From a virus: DNA of 48,209 bases. The notes below the pieces were generated by a model. It made no database searches. It worked only from the letters and a program-made list of their open reading frames with translations, and was not told the origin of the DNA. The stretch is from IMG/VR virus record IMGVR_UViG_3300028030_000015, positions 1 to 48,209 of that record. One strand, given 5' to 3'. Made by a program: the position numbers and the translations under genes. Positions 4,664 to 36,036 of this stretch are shown here, one piece after another. The stretch's first letter is position 1. Every line of letters starts with the position of its first letter.

Positions 4664-4750
4664 GGATACCAAGAGCCTCCTGCAGCAGGATAGGACAACG
4701 GCCCAGTCTCGATATCGCAACATGCGGTGACGAGATTGGGCTTTTTTTTG
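4664..4750 (+). terminator. Leader attenuator 1: GGATAC box, small hairpin, intrinsic terminator
   Basis: GGATAC (4664-4669) is followed by a small TCCTG/CAGGA hairpin (about 4677-4690). After it comes a strong terminator whose stem GCCCAGTCTCG (4701-4711) pairs with CGAGATTGGGC and runs into eight T residues. The ribosome site GGAG of the terminase small-subunit gene lies directly after the T run. Transcripts from the promoter at 4599 should stop here unless antiterminated. The same arrangement recurs at 22057 and 36099. Confidence 0.75.
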
Positions 4751-4762
4751 GAGTTTTTTTCG

Positions 4763-5320
4763 ATGGGTAAACTTTTCGACGCACTTCCTCCACATTATCA
4801 AGTTTTCGTGAGCGAATATGTCACACACGGGAAAGTTGGTGATAGTGCGAAGAAATCAGGCTCTAAAGCTAAGAACTTGTCTCAGGCTGGAAAGCAATTA
4901 CTTAAAAAAGCTGAAATCAACGATGCTTTAGCTGAAATTAAAGTTGAATTAGCTGAATCTTTAGCCGCTAAACCTGAAAGAGTGCTGAAAGAACATGCCA
5001 GAATAGGGTTTTCTGATATCCGCAACCTATTTGATGATCTTGGCAGGCTGAAGCCGGTTAGCCAGATTGATGACGACCTGGCCGCTGCAATATCGTCTGT
5101 TAAGGTCGTGGCTAGGCAGACAGGTGGCGACGATCCTCTGGACGTTGAATATGTGCACGAAATTAAGCTGTGGAACAAAGGGACAGCACTGGACGCTCTG
5201 TCGAAACATCTTGGCCTGTTTGAAAAGGATAACGAGCAGAAGGGTGACCATACTGTAATCCTGCACGATCCAACTAACCCGGATGCAAAGGAAGAACCAG
5301 GGGAAGATGGCGACTCATAA
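4763..5320 (+). CDS. Terminase small subunit
   Basis: 185 residues from the ATG at 4763, with GGAG about 10 bases upstream. A GTG 36 bases earlier lies in the terminator and is not used. The N-terminal ~60 residues carry the helix-turn-helix-like pattern of terminase small subunits (YQVFVSEYVTHGKVGDSAKKSG, then a second helix), used to recognise the packaging site. The middle has the KPERVLKEHARIGFSDIRNLF segment typical of Terminase_2-type proteins, and the C-terminus is acidic. It overlaps the large-subunit gene by 14 bases from the preferred start of that gene. Confidence 0.85.
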   Translation: MGKLFDALPPHYQVFVSEYVTHGKVGDSAKKSGSKAKNLSQAGKQLLKKAEINDALAEIKVELAESLAAKPERVLKEHARIGFSDIRNLFDDLGRLKPVSQIDDDLAAAISSVKVVARQTGGDDPLDVEYVHEIKLWNKGTALDALSKHLGLFEKDNEQKGDHTVILHDPTNPDAKEEPGEDGDS

Positions 5321-9399: not shown

Positions 9400-10464
9400 A
9401 TGAGTACGGATAGTAAACTGGATGACATTGATAATCTGAGCCATGAGGAACTTGTCGCTCTTGAGGACAGTTTGATTGAGGGCGAAGAGACCGGCGGTGA
9501 AGATGCTGCTGAGCAGAACCAGACGGTAGTGGATAAATCCGAAAGCGATAGCGACGACTCGGCCGGCACAGAAGGCGAACAGCCTGCCGGTGGAGAAGAT
9601 GCCGCAGAACCGGAGGTCTCCATACAGGACGGAGAACCTGCTACAGGTAACAGCGAAGAGGATGATCCCGTAAAGCACATAAGCCCACCCTCAAAGTGGG
9701 CAGCCGAAAGGCAGCGACGGCGGGAGTTGAAAGCGGAGCTTGATGCAGCTCGGGAAAAAGCGGCCATGGCTGAACAGATGGAAGCTGAACTTGCCGAACT
9801 GAAGGATAAGCTCAACTGGATAGAGCAAACCGTGGAACGTAAAGGAATTGATCTCCCAGACGGCCCCATGGAAGCGTTCTCTGACGAGAATATCAATGAA
9901 ATACGGGATGAATATGGCGATGAGCTGGCCGACATGATGGCGGCTGCCGCTATGATCATTAAGAGGCAGGGTGGCGATAACCCCGGGAAGGCTATGCCAG
10001 ATCCGGAGCCTGAGCCTGCTCCTGGCGAGAAGGAAACAACGTCAGCAGCGCAACCAAATGATGAGATGGTAAACAGAGCCATTTCTGAGGCGATAGAGTC
10101 GAATGATGATCTCTCTTATTGGAGAGAGAAATCGCCTGCGTTGTGGAAACTGGCTGTTGAAAAAGATGATCAACTCCTTAAAGATCCAGAGTACCAAAAA
10201 CTCTCCTTTGAAGAGCGGTTTGAAAAAGTTGTAACAGAGGTGAAGCAGGATATCAAAGGCGGTACCGGAAAGGCACAGCCAGATCAGGCGGAGATGCCCG
10301 ACTCGCTCACCGGTGCTCAAGGTGCCGCCCCTGCCGTTAACGATAACAATAACAATGCCTTGAACAAGATTCTCTCAACAGATGATCCGGATAAGCAGTT
10401 AGAACTTTATAACCGTTTGTCAGAGTCTGAACGAGATGAAGTTGACAAGGCGCTTAATATTTGA
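9400..10464 (+). CDS. Scaffolding protein
   Basis: 354 residues with ribosome site AAGGAGA. The protein is very acidic and dominated by Asp, Glu and Ala. It has a disordered N-terminal ~90 residues, a long predicted coiled coil (AAERQRRRELKAELDAAREKA onward, residues ~105-150), another acidic linker, and a short charged helical C-terminus. This composition and the place between portal and capsid genes match podovirus scaffolding proteins, which line the procapsid and bind capsid protein through the C-terminus. Sequence motifs are not diagnostic, so the call rests on composition and order. Confidence 0.75.
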   Translation: MSTDSKLDDIDNLSHEELVALEDSLIEGEETGGEDAAEQNQTVVDKSESDSDDSAGTEGEQPAGGEDAAEPEVSIQDGEPATGNSEEDDPVKHISPPSKWAAERQRRRELKAELDAAREKAAMAEQMEAELAELKDKLNWIEQTVERKGIDLPDGPMEAFSDENINEIRDEYGDELADMMAAAAMIIKRQGGDNPGKAMPDPEPEPAPGEKETTSAAQPNDEMVNRAISEAIESNDDLSYWREKSPALWKLAVEKDDQLLKDPEYQKLSFEERFEKVVTEVKQDIKGGTGKAQPDQAEMPDSLTGAQGAAPAVNDNNNNALNKILSTDDPDKQLELYNRLSESERDEVDKALNI

Positions 10465-22155: not shown

Positions 22156-25100
22156 ATGGGAGATGTTTTCGACGACATACTTTCCGAGCAAGGGGCAACA
22201 CAAAGAAAACCTGACGTGTTTGACGAAATATTGTCAGGGAATAGCGGTGCAAATAGTCACAGGCTGGGCGCTGTTGCCCAGGGGCCGGTAAGTGCTGGTG
22301 GCCAGGGGGCAAAGATGGCTTCAATGGTCAGTGCCGCAGAAAATAGAATTGCAGACAACCCGGGCGGTGGCCGCATGGTTGAAGCACAGGTTTCGACGCC
22401 AGCAGCGGAATCACAATCATTAGGGCAGACACGCCTTGGAGACGTGGGGTCTTTTGCGCCCACCCATTCACCCGTTAATGAACGTGCTGCCTCTACTCTT
22501 GATGAGGGCGCGAGCAGGGCCATACAGGAGAATGAAGGCGGTGGCAGGATAATCAGAACCGCCGGTGGCCGCAAGCGGTATTCAGATCGGGGCGATCTCG
22601 AAGAACAGCCTGCAAAACCCATTGATAACCGTAGCAATTGGGAAAAGCGAGACACGTCAAAAGATAACTTTGCTCAGAGACTGTTCGCCCCGGTAATGGC
22701 CCGTAACGAATTCCAGTATAAAAATGCAGATGAGCTCAGTCCTGAAAAACAGCAGGAACAACTTAATTACCTGTTCAGCGACACCAATCCTGATTCATAC
22801 GATGCGAGCGGAACCCCTGATTACACCAGTTTCATTTCCAAGGCCCAGCACCACGGGTACGACGGAAAGACGATAAAAAAATTCCTCGATACGTCAAGCA
22901 AGGCCGATATCCCGCTTGCTCCAACAGGCGACGGTTTTTCTGGCGGCGTTGCTGAGGTAGGACGTGCCGGGGCTCGTGGGCTTGCCAAGGGAACAAAAAT
23001 GGTTGCGCAGTCTGGGCAATGGTTCACCCCTTCATCTATGGAAGAAGAGGGTATATTTAAGGACGCTGTTGACCGCATAGAGGCCGTGATAAAGCGCAAT
23101 CCACAGCTATTTGCAGAGTCTGAGAAGAATAAAGACAGATCGTGGTACAACCCGATGAAGGCGGTTGTCGGCGGAACAGAAATGGTCAGCATGATGGCTC
23201 CTGGAATGGTCATGCCAGGAGGAGTTGCCGGGCAGTTTTGGGGGGCAATGGCCCAAGAGAAGTATGACGAGTTGGCCAAAAAGAAGCCCGGCATGTCTGA
23301 AGCAAAGAAGATCGCCTATGCCACTGGGGAGGGTATTGTTCAGGGTGGGCTCGAATGGCTGCAAACCAAGATACCAGCGGGAGTTCTTGGCAAGTTTATC
23401 CCCGGGAAAGCTAAAGGCGATATTATCAGGCGAGCCGCAGGCATGGTCAAGACAGGCAAGGGTAAACTTCTTGGAACCCTTGGAGTGGCTTATCTTGGCG
23501 AGCTTGCAACTGAAACTTCCCAGGATATGGGAAGCAAGGAGCTTGATTATTTTTCAGGACTTGAGAAAGAAGGTGTAAGCCTGCGTGATATAGGTGAAAG
23601 CCTGAAGGTTAATGCTGGACCTGTTCTTTTCACTACATTCGCTTTGTCTGGTCCTGCTCATATTGCTGACAACCGGAGGCGAGAGCAGATAAAAAGCGTT
23701 TTGACCGCCAGCCCTGAAATAGTTTCCAGGCAAGACAGGATTGCAGCGGTCAAGGCTGTATATGATTCAGTTGCCGAAAGTGACAAGTCGCTTGCTAACG
23801 AATGGTTGAAAGAGGCCTTACCCATGGCCGAAATGAACCGCCCTTTGGCAATCCCAACAGATGATAAATATCTGAACAGAAAACCTGATCCGGGGGCGCT
23901 GGAGAGGAATAGGGCTGTTCTTGATTTAAAGAAACAGAACCTGCCCACCCGTGACCTGCTGGAGATGAAAAATAACCCAACTGATGGTGGTGTCTCATCA
24001 AGTGATATTGACCTCATTCTTGAGGAGAGATACGGGGAAATGGGCGAGATGTGGGATGCCCTTGACAGCGAGATGGAAAACGACCCCATAGGTCGAGCCG
24101 CAACCGGCTCTATCCGTGACGCTCTGAACGAATTGATTGGCGAAAGAGCAGCAGAACGGGACAGGGCCCAGAAAGCGGCGGACAGAACCGCCATGGATCA
24201 GGGACTTGCCGAATACAACCCTGAAGCGCCGTTCCCTGAAAGTTCTCAACGGAAATTGTTTTCTACCCCTGATGTATCTTACAGGGACGTTCCTGTTGAT
24301 ACGGAAATCAACAGTGATCTGAGTAGCGAAAGCGGCTCAACTAAAGAACCAGCGCAAAGCCTTGACAACTCCGAGCTTGACAGGCTAGGCGAAGATCTCT
24401 CGAAGTCCGGCGCAAGCAAGGAAACCGTTCATACTGTTCAGGCCGTATTGTCTGATATCAATACGGCTGATCCCGGCAGGCTTGCAGAGATGAAGGCCAA
24501 CATCGGGAATGACCTTGGCAACTACAAAGAGTTAATTCCTTTCAGCAAGGTTTTTGAAAGGGCAATATCTAAGAGGGAGCAGGAGCTATCAGGTGCTTCC
24601 ACTGTCGCCACCAAGAGTGAAGACGTGGAAGCACCTGATACTGTGGACGGCAAACAAGAACTTGCAGGCAAGGCGTATCCTCATGATGGCGGCTTTTCTC
24701 CTGTTAATATCAACCAGCAGGATAAAAACCTTCTACAAAGCGAATTGGCAAACGATTTTATGGATTCTTCGCGGCTAGTGCAAGATGCAGAGAATGCTAA
24801 AAAAAGGCGGCGCAACTTTGAGAAGTTACAGCAGGGATATGGTTCAGATGTCACTGGCCAAACCAATGCCGACGAAGATCAAGTCCAGGCCGTTGGAAAC
24901 AAGGCCTCTGTCGCTCACGGGCAGGATGTCAATGTTAATCCGTCTGATGCCCAGAAGAAAGCTGAAAATTATAAAAAAGCCCATGTGCGCCTGGATGGAA
25001 TGGATATTTCCATAGAGAACCCTGCGGGGTCAACCAGATCAGGGACAGATAAGAGCGGCCGGCAGTGGTCACAAAAGATGAAACACGACTACGGTTACTT

Positions 25101-28100
25101 TAAAGGGACTGTTGGTTTTGATAAAGACCATGTTGATGTCTTCTTCAAAGGTGGCTACAAGGGCGGAGCCAAGAAGGTCTATATCGTCAACCAGTATGAC
25201 GGAAACAAATTTGACGAGCACAAGGTCATCATTGGAGATACCACCAAGGCCGGAGCTTTGAAAACATACAACGCCAACTACGAGAAGGGGTGGAAAGGCG
25301 GAAAAGATGTTGTTGAAATGTCAATGGATGATTTCAAAGAATGGGTGAAATCAGATGCGCCGAAACAAGGGCCCGCTGTCGGCAAGGTGACTCTTGGAAC
25401 AAAAAAAGCAAGTAAGCCCGGGCAGGTTACAAAAAAACTCACCAAGCGACAGCGGGAAATAATGAACTGGCTCAATGCCGGAAACTCTTTCAAGGATTTT
25501 GATATTGTCCCTGAGAAGAAACAGCCGATTGATACAGGATACCGGCCAAGCCCAAAAGTTATCGGTAACCTGATTAACAAGGGGCTTATCGAATTCCTTC
25601 CCAATCACGGTGAAAATGGTGAATGGTATTCCGTAAAGGTGATTGAGCGTGACAATATGCGCAAGGTTGACACGGAGATCACCCGTGGAAACGAAAAACC
25701 AAATCTCACGTTACGGGCAGAGGCTCAGGAGGCATTAAGCAAAAATCTACCAAAAGAAACAACAAACCAAGAGGATTTTATTCTTGCTCCAGGTGGAGGT
25801 CTTGATTTTGGAGAGATATCCAGAGAACAAGCAAATCTCATGCGTCGGCAAGCTGGAAAAATCAGGTTACAGCAGGGGCGGGATGACGATACTGCCCGTT
25901 TCGGGTTGGTTCACATTGAGAAGAGCCATGCGAATGACTTACCAGAGGTGAAGGAAGGCAATGTGCCTGATCTCGTAAAAGATATTGCGACCAACTTTAA
26001 TGAGATTTGGTCGGCATATGCAGGACAGTTGTTGTTGGTGAAGAGAAATGGTTCTGACAAGATTGCCTACATACAACTCAAGCCATCGGAAGATGCAGAC
26101 TTTTACACCGTAAATACAGTTTTCAGGTCACGAAAGCATAAAGGTAAAGAATTGCTTTGGTCTGCTACGCACGCACAGGCCGGTTCGACCGACAAGAACC
26201 CCGATTTTGCGGAAAACCCCAACAAGGCCGGTGGGGAAGCCCCAAACGTTACACCGGAAAGCAAATCTTCTGTTGATAATGTATCCTCTAAGCACTCACA
26301 AGTCAAGACGGATCAACGGGAAACACCGACAGGCGACAAGGCAGTTGTCACTACGCAAAATGAAGGGCCTGATCAGGCTGTTGCAGACAACGTAAAAACA
26401 AGCCTTGAACAGCATGAAAAAATTACATACCAACAGCTTTTTAAATGGGCTGATGATGCTTACGGCGGAACGCAGGGAGAGAACAAATACACACCTAAAG
26501 ACGCCTACGACGCCTTAGAGCTTGGTATTAATCAGTATATTGACAGCACCGCAAAGTTGAACCCGTCAGCAACGGAAAACCCCTCTGCTGCTCTTAATCT
26601 GCTTGCAGAAAATGTGATGTCGCTGATACCTACGCAATCAAAGCGAACGGAAGAAATGGACGAATTTCAGCAGTTTTCAACACCTCCACCGCTTGCTTAT
26701 ATGGCAAACTGGGTGGCCAAACCACAAAAAGGTGAAACATACCTGGAACCAAGTGCAGGCGTGGGCGGTATCGCAGTTTTCGGAAAGAATTCAGGGGCCA
26801 ACGTCGTTGTTAACGAACTCTCTGATCGCAGGCGTGGCCTTATCAGGCAGATGGGCTTCGACAGGGTGTTTGGCGAAAATGCAGAACACTTGAACTCTAT
26901 TTTACCAGCAGATGTAAAGCCGACGGTTATTGTGATGAATCCGCCATTCTCTGCCACTGCTGGCAGGATACAGGGGAAACGTGCGACGCAGGTGGGGGCC
27001 CAGCATGTTGAACAGGCATTGAAGCGCCTGGAACCAGGGGGGCGGTTGGTTGCCATTGTCGGCGAGGGCATGGCCATGGATAAGCCTTCTTTTAGTGGCT
27101 GGTGGAACAAAATAAAGGATGAGTATAATGTCCGGGCGAATATTGGGCTGAGCGGCAAAGGGTATCGTAAATACGGCACCACATTTGACAACCAGATGCT
27201 GGTAATTGACAAAACAGGACAGACAACAGATAATATAGTTACCGGGAAAGTCGACAGCCCGGCTGACCTTGTGCCACTACTGGAGGGCATACGCAATGAC
27301 AGAGAAAACGTTCAATCGCGACAGGTTGAGCAGGATAGCAAAGAAAAAGCTGCAGGAAGCAGGAGCAAAGGACGAGTTTCTGGACCCGGACCGGTGGTAT
27401 CCTCTCAGCCTGATGAGATGGGGCCTGGAAAACGGTCTGGACATGAAGGAGCGAACGACATATCTCAACATCCTGGAGCTATATCTTCCGTTCGAAGATC
27501 CGCGAAAGATACACCAGTTCATGGCGACAGCGGACAATATAGAGGGGGACAACCTGCAGCATCTTCTAAAAAAGCAAATGACTCCAAAAGAAGCGGCATG
27601 GGAGCTGTTGGACGTGCTGGAGACAGCGATAAAGGCAGCCCCGTATCCGTACAAAGATCCGCTGCCGAGGATATACCACGAGAGCTGCGTGTAGACGTTG
27701 CTCGGAATAGTGAATACTCTAACGTAAGTATTTCAGATTCTGTTTACGAAGAGTATAAACCTGAAAAGGTAAGAGTTCCTGGCGCAAAGAAGCACCCTGC
27801 CCCGCTTGCTCAAAGTGCGGCCATGGCTTCAGTATCGATGCCTGATCCTTCATATTCTCCAAAACTTCCGAAAAGAACAATTAAGTCTGGGGCGTTAAGC
27901 GATGCACAGCTTGAAGCTGTTGTTTATGCCGGTCAGGCGCACACGAGAGAACTGCCAAACGGTGAACGGCAAGGGTTCCTTATTGGTGATGGAACCGGCC
28001 TTGGCAAAGGTAGAGAGGTCGCAGGCATAATCTGGGATAACTGGAACCACGGACGAAAGAAGGCGGTGTGGATCTCTGAAACAAGTAATTTATTTAAGGA

Positions 28101-31100
28101 TGCAAAACGTGATATTGCCGGTATAGGATGGGATTCGGATGTCATTTTCCCTCATTCAAAAACAAAGGCCACAGGATCACTTCCCACTGGAGATGGGGTG
28201 TTATTTACAACATATAGCACGTTAAAGTCATCAGCAAGGGGCACCTCTGCCAAACCAGGGAAAACGAGGCTACAGCAGATAGTGGATTGGCTCGGAAAAG
28301 ACTTTGACGGGGTTATTGCCTTTGACGAATCGCACAATATGGGAAACGCTGTTCCTGTGAAAGGGAAAAGGGGCAATACTACCCCCTCCAAGATGGCATT
28401 GGCAGGGGTGGAACTGCAACAGTTGTTGCCGAAGGCAAGGGTAGTCTACCTCTCGGCTACAGGCGCTACTGAGATTCAAAACTTTTCCTATGCCGAACGT
28501 CTGGGCTTGTGGGGAGAAGGGACGGCATTCTCAAACAAGATGAGTTTCATTGATCAAATTTCTTCCGGCGGGACAGCAGCTATGGAGCTTATCGCCAGGG
28601 ATATGAAGTCAATGGGGGTATATCTTTCAAGGTCTATCAGTTATGACGGTGTGGAATATGACAGGGTTGAACATAATTTGTCAGAAGATCAATATAAAAT
28701 GTATAACACTGTTGCCGGAGCATGGCAGACCGTGTTGCAGAATATAAATGAGGCCATAGGCATTACCGGGGCAGATAATCGCGGCAGGGCTAAGGCGATG
28801 TCAGACTTCTGGGGCGCTAATCAACGGTTTTTCAGCCAGTATATCACTACATTGCAGATGCCATCTGTTCTCAAGTCTATTCATGATGATATTAAAAATG
28901 GCGATTCTGTTGTAATTCAACTGGTGAACACCTTTGAGGCTGCGACTGAACGAGGCCTGGCTAAACTTGATGAAGGGATGTCTATTGAGGATCTTGACAT
29001 ATCTCCTTTTGACGACCTGATGCTTCTGGTTGAACGCAGCTTCCCCGTCACGCAGTACGAGACATATACAGACGATAATGGAGCAGAGAAAAGCAGGCCG
29101 GTACAAGACTCAAAGGGTAATCCTGTCCTCAATGCAGATGCGGTAAAGATGCGTGAGCAACTGCTTGACGAGCTTGGCTCTATCAGAGGTGAAGTTGCTG
29201 ACAATCCCCTTGACCAGATTCTTGATGAGTTTGGTGTCGATAATGTAGCAGAGGTGACCGGCAGGAAAAGGCGAGTTGTCTGGGTGGAAAAAGACGGGCG
29301 GAAGAAGCGAGTGATCCAGAAAAGAAGTAAGGCCTCTGGCAGGGCTGACACACAAGACTTTATGGATGACAAGAAACGCATTCTCTTCTTCTCTCAGGCT
29401 GGTGGCACAGGTAGCAGTTATCATGCCGACAACACGGCAATCAACACAAGGAAGCGTCAGCACTATCTCCTGCAGCCTGGGTGGAGGGCAGACCAGGCCG
29501 TTCAGGGCTTAGGGCGAACCCACAGGTCGAATCAAAAGCAGCCGCCACGGTACAGGCTTGTAACTTCAAACCTGAAGGGACAGAAGCGTTTTCTCTCTTC
29601 CATTGCCCGTCGCCTTGAACAGCTCGGAGCCCTGACCAAGGGGCAGCGGCAAACAGGGAACCAGGGGATATTTAGCGAACGTGACAATCTGGAAAGCCCT
29701 TATGCTAAGGATGCTCTGCGCAAGCTGTTCCTTGATCTTGACAGGGGTCGAGTTGCAGGAATAACAATGGGCGAGTTCGAGAAGCAAACAGGACTCAACC
29801 TGACGGATAGTGATACCAGCAGACTGAAAGAAACACTCCCTGACGTTATACAGTTCTTGAATAGAATCCTAAGCATGGATGTCGATAGCCAGAACACGGT
29901 ATTCGATGAATTTTCACAGAGAATCGATGCTGTACTTGCTGCCCATGCCAAGGCCGGGACGCTTGATGTTGGCATGGAGACTCTTAACGCAGAGAGTGTG
30001 CGAAAGGTAAAGGAAATACCTGTCTACACCGATAAACTATCTGGTGCTGAAACTCGATATGTGAAATTGGCAGTAACAAATCCTGCGCAGCGGTTGTCTT
30101 TTGTAAACTCCAAACAATATGCCAACGATGGATATTATCAGAACAAGATAAGCGGGAAGACATGGGCTGTTACCAGGAGAATGTTGACCAACAGGAAGAC
30201 TGGGCAGGTTGTTGATACTATGGTGTTAACTTCTCCAACTTACAGAAAACAGAACATTCCATCCTCTGAGTTCGGGGAAAAGAAATGGAACAAACTCAAG
30301 AAAACAGAGGCGAAAAAATACTGGAATGATGATCTTGATAGTGTCCCGGCAACAACAACCTCTACAGAACACCTGATAACAGGAGCATTATTGCCAATTT
30401 GGGATAAGCTCAGCGGTAACCCTCGTATTATGCGGATACAGACAGACGATGGTGAACGGATGATCGGGCGAATGATCCCTGATGAAGCACTTGATAGTGT
30501 GCTTGATGCTCTAGGGGTAGATTCTACAGGGGCAAAGACAACTATCGATATGCCTGCAGTTGATGTATTCAGCAACGTCATTGACGGAGGAGATACAATC
30601 AGCCTCGCTGACGGCACCAGAATAGAGCGTCGCCGGGTATCTGGTGAAAATAGGATTGAAGTTAAAGGCCTCAATCGAGCAGATTTTCATAATCTTGAAA
30701 AGTACGGCATGTTTTCAGAGAGGATCAACTACCAGACAAGATACTTCGTTCCAACAACAAAAGATGGTGTGAAGATTATAGAAAAATTGACGGTTCGTAA
30801 CCCTATATCAAGCGTTAATGGGAGAAAGTCCTCTAAACCTGCGGAATTATCTGTTGATGGCGATGGCGCAAAGAGCACACCCCTCTACTCCAGGGCTGGA
30901 AAGAGATTGGCCGTCCTTGATAAAAAAGTATCGGCAACCAGAATCACGCTCAACAAAGCAATCACCCCGCAACAGGCAAAGCGCATTTATAATAATAAAA
31001 TCAAGGGGACTGAGCAGGTAAATAATGATACAGGGTGGAGCATAGGGTTTTCGGCCAAAGGAAGAGGCAAGGCTTTTTCGCATGGGCGCAAGCAGTCTGC

Positions 31101-34100
31101 GCATCTATCGTCAATTGTCGGTCTGAAAGAAATAGTGAAAAACGCTGTTCTGTTTAACACCGAAACTCTGCGCGAAGGGGAAAAAGTACATACTTTCTTT
31201 TCCTTGCTTGATATCGATGGAACGGCATACCGGGCAAAAATAATTGTTCGGGAGGATGGGCAGGGAAGAAAATTCTACGATTTGTCAGAGTCTGGAATAA
31301 GAAAGTCCCGTGTCCCTAGCAGGCTGCTTCGTGCCCAAGAGCATGAATCATCACCTACGACTCCGGGACTTTCTATTAAGACTTTAGATGATCTTCTGTC
31401 CATTGTCAATGATGAGTTTCATCACTACTCAAAAAACAGCCGTTCATCTTCCGGCTCAACCGTCACCCAAGCCAGTCGTGCAGTGCGTAAATTTCTGGGC
31501 AAGACCGGGTATATGAGGTGGAGGGCTGACAGGATTATTAGAATAATCGATAGCTCAAAAGCTCCGCCAAAACATACAGATAAGTTTTATACTCCAGATG
31601 GGAAACGTGTCGCAGGATATTATCATCCAAATGACGGCAGTATTACCCTGATAGCCGACAATATCAAACCTGAAGAGGTTGAGGGGGTGCTGCTGCATGA
31701 AGGGGTACACCGGCTGCTTGATACTGATAAGACGTTTATTAAAGACCGTGGCAATCTGTTGGCCTCGTTTGAAGCCCTGCAAGATGGAAAAGATCGTCAG
31801 TCTGATGCCGTTAAGGCCGCATTTAACAAGGCACGGCAAGCCGAGCCAGGTGGTAATGCTGATCTGATTCGGGAAGAGGCACTTTCGTACTACCTACAAG
31901 ACAAGGCGAACCGTACTCTCCCGCTTTACCGTAAAATTATCGCAGCGGTCAAGCGCGCCTTGCGCAGACTCGGCATACCTACCGGCAAACTCACTGCTGA
32001 TGATATTGTTGGTATCTTTGTTGCAGGGGTTAAGAAAGACGCAGCCAACTACAACGGGGAGAAATCAGGCGCAAGCCCCACCAGCGCAAGCAGTATTAAG
32101 AAATCTTATGCTGGCTTGTCTTCTGCAACAGCAGACAAGACTGCTCTCGATAAAGCTGTAGAAATGTATAGAAACGATTCTGATATAGAAACTATACGCC
32201 AAGAAACCGGATGGCATCTAGGTAAAGATAATAAATGGCGATATGAAATCGATGATAGTAAAGCATCGTTTGATTTCGGGAAAATACCAGAAGAGCAGCC
32301 AAGGATAAAACTTGCCGAATCTTACCTGAAAGAAAAACATAATATTCAGGCAAAATTCCCCATTGGTGATCCGAGAGTCCCGCAAAAGTTACAGAAAGAA
32401 GCCCTGGCATGGGCTGACAGCAGCCGGAAGCGGAACACTGTAAAGCTGGATACTGTTCTTGACCACAAGGAGTTGTTTGACGCATATCCTGAGCTGAGGG
32501 ACGTAAACATTGCGACAGAGACCGACCCTACGCTTGAAGGCAGCTACAACCCAGATACCAACACGGTGAGCGTTTCAAAAAACTTTATAACCTCGACAGA
32601 CGAAGATGCTTTCAAAACTTTGCTCCACGAGTTGCAGCATAAGATCCAGACAATAGAAGGTTTTGCTCCCGGTGGTCATCCTTCGCAGTTTGGTGGAAAT
32701 GTAGGAAAATATCAGAAACTCCATGGCGAGATTGAGGCCCGTGATACCTCTACCCGTAAAGACCTGACAGCTGAACAGCGGAGAGCTCTTCCCCCGTATG
32801 TTTCTGAAGGCATACCGATGGAAGATGCCATTGTCAAATTTTCCAAGGTTAATAATGCCAGCATCATAAAAGAAGGCTTCACGGAAGATCAGGAATCAGT
32901 TGTCCATCAAGCAGACAGGGTGATAAATAAAGATGACATAAGTTCGTTTGCAAGGGTCTTTTCTTCGTTTGAATACATGTCTCGAAAGAGTAAGGCTGCT
33001 TGGCGTGTAATGGAGGCACAGCTTTCAAGACGCGACAACAAGCATATCATGGAAACCAATATTGTCGGAGACTTTAACGATGTTGCCAGCGCCCTGAAGA
33101 AAGAAGATGAAAAACTATATGGAGAGTTCAGCGACTATCTGGTTGATATTGACCGGACAGGGAAGGCTTTTTCTGTGCGGGGCCAGTCAGGATGGACGGT
33201 TACCACGCCTGACGGTGCTTACGTCGGGACAGCTACCACCAAGGAGAAGGCCTACGCAATGAGCCAGGAAGCGGCAAAGGCCCATAACGCAAAGGCAAAG
33301 ATTAACGGTACAAAACAGTATCTAGTCAGGGATTACCCGGTTAATGAGGCTTCAGGATGGGAAGTCATCGGCCCTAAAGGTGAAGTGTTGAAGATAGCAG
33401 CATCTGAAAAAGAAGCTGTTGCTGAAATGATGGCTGCTGAAGCTAAGCAGATGGCAAAAGACAAGATAAACCGTAAGGTTATCAGGGCGGTTATGGCCTT
33501 TCGCGGCATGACAAACAGGGCCTTTGATGAAATGGTCGCTGATATGCGACGGGTGATAGCTGAGGCAGAAGAACAGGGCCTTGACATGCCGAGCGTTGAT
33601 GTCGTTGATGAGTCGAGACGGTGGGCCATATTCGGGCAACACCAGAAGAAGCCGACCGCAACCTTTTCTACCAGGGCAGAAGCTGAAGCGGCATTGCGTG
33701 AGCTTTCAAAGGTTCAGACGAAGACTGGTAAACGCCGGATAGCTGGTAAGCCGATGCCAGCTTATGATATTAAAAAACAGGACGATAGCGATATTATGAA
33801 GTCAATTACCATTAAGGAGGCCATTTCCTTAATGGGCGACTTGCGGGGGGCGTATTTCCCGCGTACAAGAAAACCTGGAGGGATAATACTCAAAGCCTAT
33901 AACAAAAAGGGGAACCGGAAATTCTTGAAAAAATTTGATTTTGCGATGCTCGAAAAACGGGGGATCGTCAACGAATGGGACGGAACAATTAAAGATGACG
34001 GTCTGATAGTCTCCAAGCTGAAAAAAGTCTTTAACGCTCTTACACCGCTTGGGGCTGAGATTCGCCGCTTGGAGAAACAGGGCTTTGAAGTTGAGGTCTC

Positions 34101-36036
34101 AAAGGACGAATCCTTGCCTGAAGATGTTTTTGAAGCGACGCAGCTCATGTCATCTGTTAATGCTCTCCTTGAAAAATCTCTTGATGCAGCGAAGAAGAAA
34201 GATCAAGGGGCCCATGAAGAGGCAGCGGCAGAGTTAAACAAAATCCTTACAGCAAATATTGCCGATATATTCAAACAGCGTGGTTACCTCAGTTCCAGAT
34301 TGAAACGATCTGATGACTATTACGAGGGATTTGAAACTGATCCTATCAAGGCCGGCGTTCAATATGCTCGTGGTCTTTCTGCAGGCATGGCAAAGAAACG
34401 GGCAGCAAGGGAGATGGTGCTTGCCCTTGCCGGTCGTGATATTCCTTATAAGCAGTGGCAGGATGATACGGGCAAAAGTGACTACACTGAATACCTTGAT
34501 TTTGTCGCAAGCAGGAGGATTGACCCTGGCAAGCAAAAGAACCTTTACGCTGAAACGATGTCATTTATTCGTGAGGTATTGAGGAATGAAGAGCGCTCAG
34601 ACCGTATCATGGGGACACTGCAGGGATTGACAGTTCTTAAATTCCTTGGTTTTCGGGTAAGCTCTGCTGCCGTAAACTTAACCAATATGGTGCAGGGCGT
34701 CCCCGCTACCATGAGCGGACATACAGGCTTATCTCTCACCAAATCGCTTAATCTCATCAGGCGCTCAGCAGTTGAGTACGGAAAACTACGATTGGGTAAG
34801 TCAAGTGGTGTGAACAAAGCTATTTTTGATTATGTGACAGATATGGGCTGGGATGAGGCACAATTCAACACCGACTTATACGGAGCCCTTAGATCAAAAA
34901 CGGAAGGTATTTATGACAGCGTTTCCGCCTTTTCCATGCTTGCCTTCGGTGTGACAGAGAAGGCTAACAGGGCTATGACACACTGGGCAGCGTACAAAGC
35001 TGTTATGAAATCACAGGGTAAAAAAATCACGGCAGAGATTGACGAATCCGCCATGAAAAAAGCTCATGAAATTTCAGACCGTGCGCATGGTGTTTACGGG
35101 AAAGAAACAAAGCCAGCCTGGACCCGTGGCGCATGGAACCCTTTAAAAATGGCATTCACTTTTCAGAAGTTCGGGCAAAACTACATGTTGAACATGTTGG
35201 AGCTTGGTTTTGATAAAAAGGATTACAAGGCAGCTGCGTACATGCTGCTCTCCCCTGCTGTCCTGGCCGGGGCCGGGGCCAGCATTGTAACGCCTCTCCT
35301 TGCCTCGATAGCTTCCGGGCTTGGTATAGGTGGCGATGATCCGGAAGAAGAGTTTTATGCCTGGGCCCGGGAGACGTTCGGAACTGACCGAGTATTTAGG
35401 AATGGCATTGCCGGTCTTGGCGGGATAAACCTCAAGGGATCTCTGCAAATAAATATGCCGTTCCCTACAAACATGAAGGAGATGATGACAACGCCTTTGA
35501 TCTCTGTTGCTGGTGCCCCTGGAGGTGTGATAAAAGATGAGTACGACGCAATCAACTACCTGTTACGCGGGGACGGCATGAAGAGTCTGGAAAAAATGTT
35601 ACCTACAGGACTGGGCGCACCTATTAAAGCGTACCGTGAGGGTACGCAGGGAATAACCACTAAAGGGAACTCTCCTGTCTTTTATGGGAACAAACCGCTC
35701 AAGGCTGATCGTACCGACATGGTTATGCGAGCGTTTGGATTTAACCCTGCAAAATTGTCTGGAATACGTGAAAGACAGTGGAGCGAAAGAAAAGTGTCGA
35801 AAGAATACAGCAAAATGAAGTCTGATATATCCGCCAGAGTAAAAGCCTGGATGCTCGGAGGAAGAGACAAGCAGGAGTGGGAAGATATTCTGGCAGATAT
35901 TCTGAAATTTAATGAGCGGGTAAAGACGAGGCGACCTTTTGGAGTTACCCCGATAACGAGAAAAACGCTTAGGCGATATATCAGATCTACGACCAAGGCC
36001 CCGAGGCGTGAACGAATGAGGCGTAGAACTGTGTGA
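22156..36036 (+). CDS. Giant polyvalent protein: DarB-like methylase/helicase with nuclease, peptidase and LPD modules
   Basis: 4,626 residues, GGAG ribosome site. Order by approximate residue: two tandem 'DVFD-IL' motifs (3-9, 20-26); a membrane-active-looking Gly/Ala region (260-510); an acidic linker; a phage inorganic-pyrophosphatase-like domain with GFDKDHVDVFFKG...FDEHKVIIGDT (935-1065); a winged-helix-like segment (1094-1162); a BECR-type nuclease-like domain (1206-1337); an adenine methylase with LEPSAGVGG and NPPF (about 1426-1687, NPPF at 1595). Next is a low-complexity linker (1714-1846) over an embedded gene, then a strawberry-notch-type helicase with GDGTGLGKG (1944), DESH (2057), LSATG, and AVQGLGRTHRSNQ (~2450). 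An LPD-like module (2909-3092) and two metallopeptidase-like sites, HEGVH (3181) and HELQH (3491), follow. The C-terminus holds an LPD38-like region (4155-4415) with a hydrophobic stretch (4359-4394). P1 DarB combines the same methylase-helicase core and enters cells with DNA to block restriction. By analogy this protein is likely packaged and ejected. Confidence 0.88.
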   Translation: MGDVFDDILSEQGATQRKPDVFDEILSGNSGANSHRLGAVAQGPVSAGGQGAKMASMVSAAENRIADNPGGGRMVEAQVSTPAAESQSLGQTRLGDVGSFAPTHSPVNERAASTLDEGASRAIQENEGGGRIIRTAGGRKRYSDRGDLEEQPAKPIDNRSNWEKRDTSKDNFAQRLFAPVMARNEFQYKNADELSPEKQQEQLNYLFSDTNPDSYDASGTPDYTSFISKAQHHGYDGKTIKKFLDTSSKADIPLAPTGDGFSGGVAEVGRAGARGLAKGTKMVAQSGQWFTPSSMEEEGIFKDAVDRIEAVIKRNPQLFAESEKNKDRSWYNPMKAVVGGTEMVSMMAPGMVMPGGVAGQFWGAMAQEKYDELAKKKPGMSEAKKIAYATGEGIVQGGLEWLQTKIPAGVLGKFIPGKAKGDIIRRAAGMVKTGKGKLLGTLGVAYLGELATETSQDMGSKELDYFSGLEKEGVSLRDIGESLKVNAGPVLFTTFALSGPAHIADNRRREQIKSVLTASPEIVSRQDRIAAVKAVYDSVAESDKSLANEWLKEALPMAEMNRPLAIPTDDKYLNRKPDPGALERNRAVLDLKKQNLPTRDLLEMKNNPTDGGVSSSDIDLILEERYGEMGEMWDALDSEMENDPIGRAATGSIRDALNELIGERAAERDRAQKAADRTAMDQGLAEYNPEAPFPESSQRKLFSTPDVSYRDVPVDTEINSDLSSESGSTKEPAQSLDNSELDRLGEDLSKSGASKETVHTVQAVLSDINTADPGRLAEMKANIGNDLGNYKELIPFSKVFERAISKREQELSGASTVATKSEDVEAPDTVDGKQELAGKAYPHDGGFSPVNINQQDKNLLQSELANDFMDSSRLVQDAENAKKRRRNFEKLQQGYGSDVTGQTNADEDQVQAVGNKASVAHGQDVNVNPSDAQKKAENYKKAHVRLDGMDISIENPAGSTRSGTDKSGRQWSQKMKHDYGYFKGTVGFDKDHVDVFFKGGYKGGAKKVYIVNQYDGNKFDEHKVIIGDTTKAGALKTYNANYEKGWKGGKDVVEMSMDDFKEWVKSDAPKQGPAVGKVTLGTKKASKPGQVTKKLTKRQREIMNWLNAGNSFKDFDIVPEKKQPIDTGYRPSPKVIGNLINKGLIEFLPNHGENGEWYSVKVIERDNMRKVDTEITRGNEKPNLTLRAEAQEALSKNLPKETTNQEDFILAPGGGLDFGEISREQANLMRRQAGKIRLQQGRDDDTARFGLVHIEKSHANDLPEVKEGNVPDLVKDIATNFNEIWSAYAGQLLLVKRNGSDKIAYIQLKPSEDADFYTVNTVFRSRKHKGKELLWSATHAQAGSTDKNPDFAENPNKAGGEAPNVTPESKSSVDNVSSKHSQVKTDQRETPTGDKAVVTTQNEGPDQAVADNVKTSLEQHEKITYQQLFKWADDAYGGTQGENKYTPKDAYDALELGINQYIDSTAKLNPSATENPSAALNLLAENVMSLIPTQSKRTEEMDEFQQFSTPPPLAYMANWVAKPQKGETYLEPSAGVGGIAVFGKNSGANVVVNELSDRRRGLIRQMGFDRVFGENAEHLNSILPADVKPTVIVMNPPFSATAGRIQGKRATQVGAQHVEQALKRLEPGGRLVAIVGEGMAMDKPSFSGWWNKIKDEYNVRANIGLSGKGYRKYGTTFDNQMLVIDKTGQTTDNIVTGKVDSPADLVPLLEGIRNDRENVQSRQVEQDSKEKAAGSRSKGRVSGPGPVVSSQPDEMGPGKRSGHEGANDISQHPGAISSVRRSAKDTPVHGDSGQYRGGQPAASSKKANDSKRSGMGAVGRAGDSDKGSPVSVQRSAAEDIPRELRVDVARNSEYSNVSISDSVYEEYKPEKVRVPGAKKHPAPLAQSAAMASVSMPDPSYSPKLPKRTIKSGALSDAQLEAVVYAGQAHTRELPNGERQGFLIGDGTGLGKGREVAGIIWDNWNHGRKKAVWISETSNLFKDAKRDIAGIGWDSDVIFPHSKTKATGSLPTGDGVLFTTYSTLKSSARGTSAKPGKTRLQQIVDWLGKDFDGVIAFDESHNMGNAVPVKGKRGNTTPSKMALAGVELQQLLPKARVVYLSATGATEIQNFSYAERLGLWGEGTAFSNKMSFIDQISSGGTAAMELIARDMKSMGVYLSRSISYDGVEYDRVEHNLSEDQYKMYNTVAGAWQTVLQNINEAIGITGADNRGRAKAMSDFWGANQRFFSQYITTLQMPSVLKSIHDDIKNGDSVVIQLVNTFEAATERGLAKLDEGMSIEDLDISPFDDLMLLVERSFPVTQYETYTDDNGAEKSRPVQDSKGNPVLNADAVKMREQLLDELGSIRGEVADNPLDQILDEFGVDNVAEVTGRKRRVVWVEKDGRKKRVIQKRSKASGRADTQDFMDDKKRILFFSQAGGTGSSYHADNTAINTRKRQHYLLQPGWRADQAVQGLGRTHRSNQKQPPRYRLVTSNLKGQKRFLSSIARRLEQLGALTKGQRQTGNQGIFSERDNLESPYAKDALRKLFLDLDRGRVAGITMGEFEKQTGLNLTDSDTSRLKETLPDVIQFLNRILSMDVDSQNTVFDEFSQRIDAVLAAHAKAGTLDVGMETLNAESVRKVKEIPVYTDKLSGAETRYVKLAVTNPAQRLSFVNSKQYANDGYYQNKISGKTWAVTRRMLTNRKTGQVVDTMVLTSPTYRKQNIPSSEFGEKKWNKLKKTEAKKYWNDDLDSVPATTTSTEHLITGALLPIWDKLSGNPRIMRIQTDDGERMIGRMIPDEALDSVLDALGVDSTGAKTTIDMPAVDVFSNVIDGGDTISLADGTRIERRRVSGENRIEVKGLNRADFHNLEKYGMFSERINYQTRYFVPTTKDGVKIIEKLTVRNPISSVNGRKSSKPAELSVDGDGAKSTPLYSRAGKRLAVLDKKVSATRITLNKAITPQQAKRIYNNKIKGTEQVNNDTGWSIGFSAKGRGKAFSHGRKQSAHLSSIVGLKEIVKNAVLFNTETLREGEKVHTFFSLLDIDGTAYRAKIIVREDGQGRKFYDLSESGIRKSRVPSRLLRAQEHESSPTTPGLSIKTLDDLLSIVNDEFHHYSKNSRSSSGSTVTQASRAVRKFLGKTGYMRWRADRIIRIIDSSKAPPKHTDKFYTPDGKRVAGYYHPNDGSITLIADNIKPEEVEGVLLHEGVHRLLDTDKTFIKDRGNLLASFEALQDGKDRQSDAVKAAFNKARQAEPGGNADLIREEALSYYLQDKANRTLPLYRKIIAAVKRALRRLGIPTGKLTADDIVGIFVAGVKKDAANYNGEKSGASPTSASSIKKSYAGLSSATADKTALDKAVEMYRNDSDIETIRQETGWHLGKDNKWRYEIDDSKASFDFGKIPEEQPRIKLAESYLKEKHNIQAKFPIGDPRVPQKLQKEALAWADSSRKRNTVKLDTVLDHKELFDAYPELRDVNIATETDPTLEGSYNPDTNTVSVSKNFITSTDEDAFKTLLHELQHKIQTIEGFAPGGHPSQFGGNVGKYQKLHGEIEARDTSTRKDLTAEQRRALPPYVSEGIPMEDAIVKFSKVNNASIIKEGFTEDQESVVHQADRVINKDDISSFARVFSSFEYMSRKSKAAWRVMEAQLSRRDNKHIMETNIVGDFNDVASALKKEDEKLYGEFSDYLVDIDRTGKAFSVRGQSGWTVTTPDGAYVGTATTKEKAYAMSQEAAKAHNAKAKINGTKQYLVRDYPVNEASGWEVIGPKGEVLKIAASEKEAVAEMMAAEAKQMAKDKINRKVIRAVMAFRGMTNRAFDEMVADMRRVIAEAEEQGLDMPSVDVVDESRRWAIFGQHQKKPTATFSTRAEAEAALRELSKVQTKTGKRRIAGKPMPAYDIKKQDDSDIMKSITIKEAISLMGDLRGAYFPRTRKPGGIILKAYNKKGNRKFLKKFDFAMLEKRGIVNEWDGTIKDDGLIVSKLKKVFNALTPLGAEIRRLEKQGFEVEVSKDESLPEDVFEATQLMSSVNALLEKSLDAAKKKDQGAHEEAAAELNKILTANIADIFKQRGYLSSRLKRSDDYYEGFETDPIKAGVQYARGLSAGMAKKRAAREMVLALAGRDIPYKQWQDDTGKSDYTEYLDFVASRRIDPGKQKNLYAETMSFIREVLRNEERSDRIMGTLQGLTVLKFLGFRVSSAAVNLTNMVQGVPATMSGHTGLSLTKSLNLIRRSAVEYGKLRLGKSSGVNKAIFDYVTDMGWDEAQFNTDLYGALRSKTEGIYDSVSAFSMLAFGVTEKANRAMTHWAAYKAVMKSQGKKITAEIDESAMKKAHEISDRAHGVYGKETKPAWTRGAWNPLKMAFTFQKFGQNYMLNMLELGFDKKDYKAAAYMLLSPAVLAGAGASIVTPLLASIASGLGIGGDDPEEEFYAWARETFGTDRVFRNGIAGLGGINLKGSLQINMPFPTNMKEMMTTPLISVAGAPGGVIKDEYDAINYLLRGDGMKSLEKMLPTGLGAPIKAYREGTQGITTKGNSPVFYGNKPLKADRTDMVMRAFGFNPAKLSGIRERQWSERKVSKEYSKMKSDISARVKAWMLGGRDKQEWEDILADILKFNERVKTRRPFGVTPITRKTLRRYIRSTTKAPRRERMRRRTV
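27296..27694 (+). CDS. Embedded gene inside the giant gene, +1 frame
   Basis: 132 residues from ATG 27296, with a ribosome site GGAGGG about 8 bases upstream. It is wholly inside the giant gene but in the +1 frame. Its product has ordinary globular composition: a charged helical start (MTEKTFNRDRLSRIAKKKLQ), then WYPLSLMRWGLENGLDM, a Leu/Ile-rich core, and a C-terminal helix ending in a Pro-rich tail (KAAPYPYKDPLPRIYHES). The giant frame across the same bases encodes a Ser/Gly/Lys/Asp-rich linker between methylase and helicase, so that frame looks unconstrained. No family recognised; no start-to-stop interruption over 399 bases. It may be a separate phage protein, or a gene that was trapped between two fused genes. 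Confidence 0.6.
   Translation: MTEKTFNRDRLSRIAKKKLQEAGAKDEFLDPDRWYPLSLMRWGLENGLDMKERTTYLNILELYLPFEDPRKIHQFMATADNIEGDNLQHLLKKQMTPKEAAWELLDVLETAIKAAPYPYKDPLPRIYHESCV

Follow-up and report, generated by a model that had tools for sequence, protein, structure and literature searches.

Evidence for a small gene nested in the methylase-helicase linker of a giant polyvalent-protein gene of phages and conjugative plasmids

Can the stretch of DNA that a giant phage gene reads as a low-complexity linker also encode a second protein in another frame? The window that we analyzed, the whole 48,209-base stretch of IMG/VR virus record IMGVR_UViG_3300028030_000015, encodes a portal protein, a major head protein, and an integrase and therefore represents a temperate tailed phage. 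A giant polyvalent (DarB-like) gene on the plus strand (22156..36036; 4626 aa) lies 3' of the structural genes, in the phage late region, and carries InPase, adenine methyltransferase (MTase), AAA_34 plus Helicase_C_4, LPD3, and LPD23 domains. Its methylase part (approximately 26602..27270, plus strand) is recognized by an NPPF motif, conservation, and a weak Pfam MTS match, and its Strawberry-notch-type helicase part (approximately 27790..29980, plus strand) is recognized by Pfam AAA_34 (residues 1879-2185) and Helicase_C_4 (residues 2350-2608). The domain matches and the NPPF motif place the gene among the DarB-like ones, with an adenine MTase fused to an SF2 helicase and other conflict domains present. 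Based on the literature and on the position after the structural genes, the giant protein is probably packaged in the virion and injected. Between the two parts, at 27295..27693 (plus strand; residues about 1714-1846), the giant frame encodes a hydrophilic linker that joins methylase to helicase; the first-pass annotation had called it low complexity, and its translation, which is rich in G, S, R, P, and T, agrees. Over the same bases, entirely within the giant ORF and in the +1 frame relative to it, lies an ATG-initiated ORF of 132 aa (27296..27694, plus strand) with a predicted all-helical product of a new family. Its Shine-Dalgarno (SD) motif GGAGGG (27282..27287, plus strand) sits inside the giant codons for L-E-G, 8 nt before the ATG, and is kept in relatives.

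The length of the ORF gives a first indication. The +1 open stretch here spans 151 codons, and none of 500 shuffles of the giant codons produced one as long, the longest being 124. The same test over 47 loci gave a median P of 0.016, and many single relatives are less extreme than the window. This modest median reflects the fact that such linkers favor open +1 frames; gene-free GC-rich linkers, found in plasmid fusions that lack the nested gene, also show +1 open frames of 80 to 190 codons, so ORF length alone is not decisive. The earlier claim that overprinting of this length is unlikely by chance thus holds for this locus but only moderately for many of its relatives. The decisive evidence for a nested gene is comparative and comes from 80 relatives and the periodicity of their substitutions.

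Relatives were gathered by anchoring on the giant gene, in sets of 3, then 46 viral plus 14 genomic, and then 29 loci, with some contigs included twice. They yielded 80 distinct nested proteins, all encoded in the +1 frame over this linker, with a median length of 120.5 aa (range, 83 to 145 aa), and their carriers are phages, conjugative plasmids, and metagenome-assembled genomes of Pseudomonadota and Bacillota. The start is an ATG in 78 of the 80, an SD-like motif precedes it in 72, and in nearly all two-domain loci the ATG falls at or near a single homologous codon; its distance from the DKTG anchor is usually 79 nt. In none of the listed loci does a stop codon interrupt the giant frame in the linker. 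The nested frame, too, is open in close relatives, with start and ribosome site kept in nearly all, and a pair of flanking sequencing indels, which the first-pass annotation had named as a possible artifact, is excluded because independent relatives carry the same arrangement.

When the nested protein of the window was used alone as a query, nothing useful was found in phage, plasmid, and viral-contig sets, PHROGs, or Pfam. A profile built from 41 nested proteins (A3) convincingly matched only the nested ORFs of the loci, and no record or genome held more than one copy. The same maximum was seen in a search of about 1000 genomes, where a weak match (E value of 7.7e-4) lay in a 1054-codon frame (G123) and the genomes inspected held a single solo copy. 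Divergence within the family is rapid (15 to 30% identity). Three Bacillota members (L035, L057, and L060) fall outside the A3 profile, and two others (L118 and L119) give weak matches to it (E values of 2e-4 and 1e-6). An alignment of L118, L119, L035, and L060 showed a common C-terminal end and a partial profile match to A3, and homology of the Bacillota members to the main family is likely, though short of proof. Three further loci (L023, L024, and L042) have linker ORFs that the profile does not recognize. Six linkers (L030, L031, L032, L044, L059, and L117) contain roughly 100 to 250 aa of extra in-frame sequence between the nested gene and the helicase, and in L034 a shortened nested remnant (4671-4826) is present and the giant gene is joined to other sequence where the helicase would be.

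The substitution pattern bears directly on whether the nested frame is protein-coding. In disjoint close pairs, counted over the loci that remain when eight Methylococcales loci are set aside, the changes at giant codon positions 1, 2, and 3 were 149/80/484 in the methylase flank, 179/109/86 over the nested ORF, and 175/108/675 in the helicase flank (chi-square P of about 1e-44). The giant third position thus takes 484 of 713 and 675 of 958 changes in the flanks and is the least changed position over the nested ORF (86 of 374), where the nested third position is the most changed (179 of 374). In 60-codon sliding windows, the share of giant position 3 falls to 0.24 to 0.25 over nested codons 0 to 119 and nowhere else in the scanned stretch, and each of the 25 closest pairs has a higher amino acid identity in the nested protein than in the linker. 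The Glu codon within the SD is GAG in 63 loci and GAA in 9, against a background of 3539 versus 3750 in the methylase part (P of 6e-12); judged from this codon choice, the SD itself is under synonymous selection. Taken at the level of sequence, these comparisons demonstrate purifying selection on the nested ORF as a protein-coding gene with its own start. A chance open frame, arising from the biased composition of the low-complexity linker, would fit the long +1 frames of gene-free linkers and the many single loci that are only moderately unlikely, but it is already refuted by the homologous protein family found across loci, the nested-frame periodicity, and the conserved start and SD. Programmed frameshifting, which would give a methylase-nested fusion instead of a separate protein, is very improbable. 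The nested ORF does lie on the same strand and in the +1 frame, and at some loci the frame is open upstream of the ATG; the ATG, however, is conserved at one homologous codon, the SD is under synonymous selection, and in 28 of the 80 loci the nested frame is closed by a stop no more than 5 codons upstream of the ATG, which argues against expression by frameshifting.

We therefore consider the nested ORF at 27296-27694 a real gene that would be translated by internal initiation, with a probability of about 0.93. The proposal that a second gene is embedded here in another frame is borne out by the 80 distinct relatives, the conserved start and SD, and the switch in substitution frame, and that of true dual coding is supported as well, the nested frame being conserved and selected and the giant frame being free of stops over the linker. 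Ribosomes would initiate internally on the giant mRNA at the nested SD and ATG and produce a free-standing protein of about 120 aa that is predicted to be all-helical and is acidic in most members, and the giant frame would read the same bases as a flexible link between methylase and helicase. In this arrangement, the giant wobble base is the second base of the nested codon, and the nested wobble base sets the first base of the giant codon. The two readings may coexist because the nested frame carries the protein-level constraint, so that the linker need only stay free of stops and hydrophilic.

The product belongs to a family that, by its sequence profile, is new. Searches of Pfam, PHROGs, and PADLOC gave no matching family for the nested proteins, and the one weak NCBIfam match concerned a single member of the 41; in those databases, no described antirestriction or antidefense family corresponds to the nested product. 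AlphaFold2 applied to A3 gave a confident all-helical model (pLDDT of 81.8 and pTM of 0.77), and a Foldseek search with the nested model found no match at an E value of ≤0.001 in the PDB or BFVD. Profile matches in the PDB to a sigma factor (E value of 0.13) and to NELF-C/D (E value of 0.018) were weak and partial and were discarded, as were matches to DUF2316 and Ribosomal_L22, which fell far below the cutoff. Over 56 rows, the net charge averages -6.1, and it is negative in 50; this set also counts the Bacteroides protein and a Ruegeria-phage sequence from outside the family (+25). A DNA mimic resembling Ocr or ArdA was considered and not adopted; most members are acidic, but the window's protein has a charge of only -2 and some members are positive. 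The annotated records that we inspected, including plasmids, whose gene tables are incomplete, list no nested CDS.

The nested profile matched 20 of 301 Methylococcales genomes, one of them weakly. Named plasmids with the nested gene are those of Methylomonas sp. LL1, Methylotuvimicrobium alcaliphilum 20Z (NC_016108), Thioflavicoccus mobilis, and Methylomonas AM2-LC. In the LL1 and 20Z plasmids, the gene that holds it comes after traI, the coupling-protein gene, traF, and the topoisomerase III gene of an IncP-type Tra operon. In one Methylococcales mobile element, the nested gene occurs as a solo copy (L092:3722-4066, minus strand; genome G130, contig C2), with neither the methylase nor the helicase part. 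It follows a NikA/MobC-like gene and a relaxase-like gene whose product carries LPD7 and KfrB domains, and the segment covers about 515 bases, in which short flanks surround the nested gene and its SD. The changes between it and a near nested relative (44/22/15) favor the nested frame, and few are specific to the solo copy; this one locus could be the remnant of a recent deletion. Some relatives, conversely, lack the nested gene. A total of 239 plasmid records align with the methylase-helicase query over most of its length, and a protein-like nested ORF was absent from the 7 measurable alphaproteobacterial plasmids of the 9 that we examined; it was also absent from the linkers of L047/L048 and L033. 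The gene is thus not essential to the fusion protein. On the tree, L047, L033, and the plasmid fusion L109 branch among rows that bear the nested gene, and six plasmid fusions group in a single clade, with several basal forks unresolved. The 345-aa linker of L033 (4604-5639) apparently holds another inserted domain. In L109 (Azospirillum argentinense plasmid p7), the methylase-Strawberry-notch gene adjoins type I-E cas6e, cas1, and cas2 and a gene for a restriction endonuclease that binds phosphorothioated DNA.

These relatives also bear on the origin of the arrangement. The first-pass annotation had suggested that the nested gene may once have been a separate gene between methylase and helicase genes that were fused around it later. 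Mean codon usage is better for the nested than for the linker frame (0.056 versus -0.122; 43 of 65 loci), which speaks for such an ancestry, and a similar origin has been proposed for the hepatitis B virus S gene inside the polymerase gene (PMC8227390). However, none of the loci found carries methylase, small, and helicase genes as separate units, the relatives free of the nested gene (the alphaproteobacterial plasmids and L047) are already fused through shorter linkers of about 101 to 137 aa, and codon usage in this window does not favor the nested frame. We consider this origin unlikely.

A different protein occupies the same linker in Bacteroides phages. In the isolated phage BS-TP4 (PQ571277.1) and 12 relatives (L147 to L158), all 13 have a +1 ORF in this linker (in BS-TP4, L065:6749-7096, about 10044-10391 of the record), mostly preceded by an A-rich stretch and no SD. 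The BS-TP4 record annotates only the giant CDS and leaves the nested ORF unlisted. The substitution counts (110/76/464 and 34/27/223 in the flanks and 159/88/64 over the nested ORF) show the same frame switch. Comparison of the Bacteroides nested proteins with the main family by hhalign showed no profile similarity (probability of 0.1), and the Bacteroides model is confidently alpha/beta (pLDDT of 90.9 and pTM of 0.85), whereas that of the main family is all-helical, the two models being compared without superposition. The simplest reading of profiles and models is that nesting in Bacteroides phages arose independently, but the two proteins may be related and extremely diverged. It is conceivable, if short of an even chance, that the methylase-helicase linker is a recurrent site of nesting, occupied in the same +1 frame by at least two unrelated proteins that would be small counterdefense factors also mobile on their own.

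For the main family, a role as a small counterdefense or establishment protein is suggested, tentatively, by the mobile context, the fast divergence, the relaxase-associated solo copy, and the different nested protein in Bacteroides phages. Phages and conjugative plasmids would make it alongside the antirestriction giant that they inject or transfer. About as likely is a partner of the giant protein itself, which would act either as a chaperone or by holding the methylase-helicase in check inside the cell that produces it; this alternative concerns the role of the gene and not its reality. Translation from the same mRNA would match the amounts of the two proteins, and a partner would fit the site exactly between methylase and helicase, the nearly constant linkage to this dyad, and the single copy per record. 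The solo copy without methylase or helicase, however, and the seven alphaproteobacterial plasmid fusions without a protein-like nested ORF speak against a partner.

Same-strand nested phage genes with their own start in another frame are known from lambda, where Rz1 lies inside Rz, and from phiX174, where E lies inside D. Those are lysis genes within small genes, whereas the gene described here lies in the gene for a giant injected protein and is found on plasmids too. In hepatitis B virus, the S gene overprints the polymerase gene (reviewed in PMC8227390), and there, as here, a protein is encoded between two domains of a longer protein, on the same strand in a shifted frame. The nested gene differs in its carriers, phages and conjugative plasmids, in its location in the methylase-helicase linker of a polyvalent protein, and in its bacterial SD and ATG; we claim no homology. 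The antirestriction gene ardD, whose activity was assayed, lies within tniA of Tn5053 (PMC3533173) and is likewise a small gene in a larger gene of a mobile element, but it is antisense; the nested gene is on the same strand, is conserved across phyla, and has a putative function deduced from context. The likeness drawn here is one of arrangement. The DarB-like polyvalent proteins with a DNA methylase-helicase dyad were described by Iyer et al. in 2017 (PMC5512222), and our giant gene is of the same type, combining the adenine MTase-Strawberry-notch helicase with InPase, LPD3, and LPD23. The nested product is not among the domains of the giant protein; in that paper, the word "overlapping" is absent and the single passage on a "reading frame" concerns separate small ORFs. 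Gene-in-gene overprinting is known; as far as the searched literature and databases show, there is no earlier description of this family, of its location in a polyvalent-protein gene, of its occurrence in both phages and plasmids, or of its recurrence.

In the records that we inspected, annotation has missed this gene-in-gene, which is long, conserved, and on the same strand as its host gene and which occurs in double-stranded DNA phages and conjugative plasmids alike. It illustrates how a second, folded protein can offset the cost of a disordered linker. The loci with the nested gene, without it, with a solo copy, and with another fold form a natural series for the study of gene birth by overprinting, and they point to an unstudied protein family made together with antirestriction cargo. 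Cultured carriers exist in Bacteroides phage BS-TP4 and in the plasmid of M. alcaliphilum 20Z. Elsewhere in the window, further ORFs of more than 100 aa overlap the giant gene, one at 23225-23578 on the plus strand and several on the minus strand over 22257-24194.
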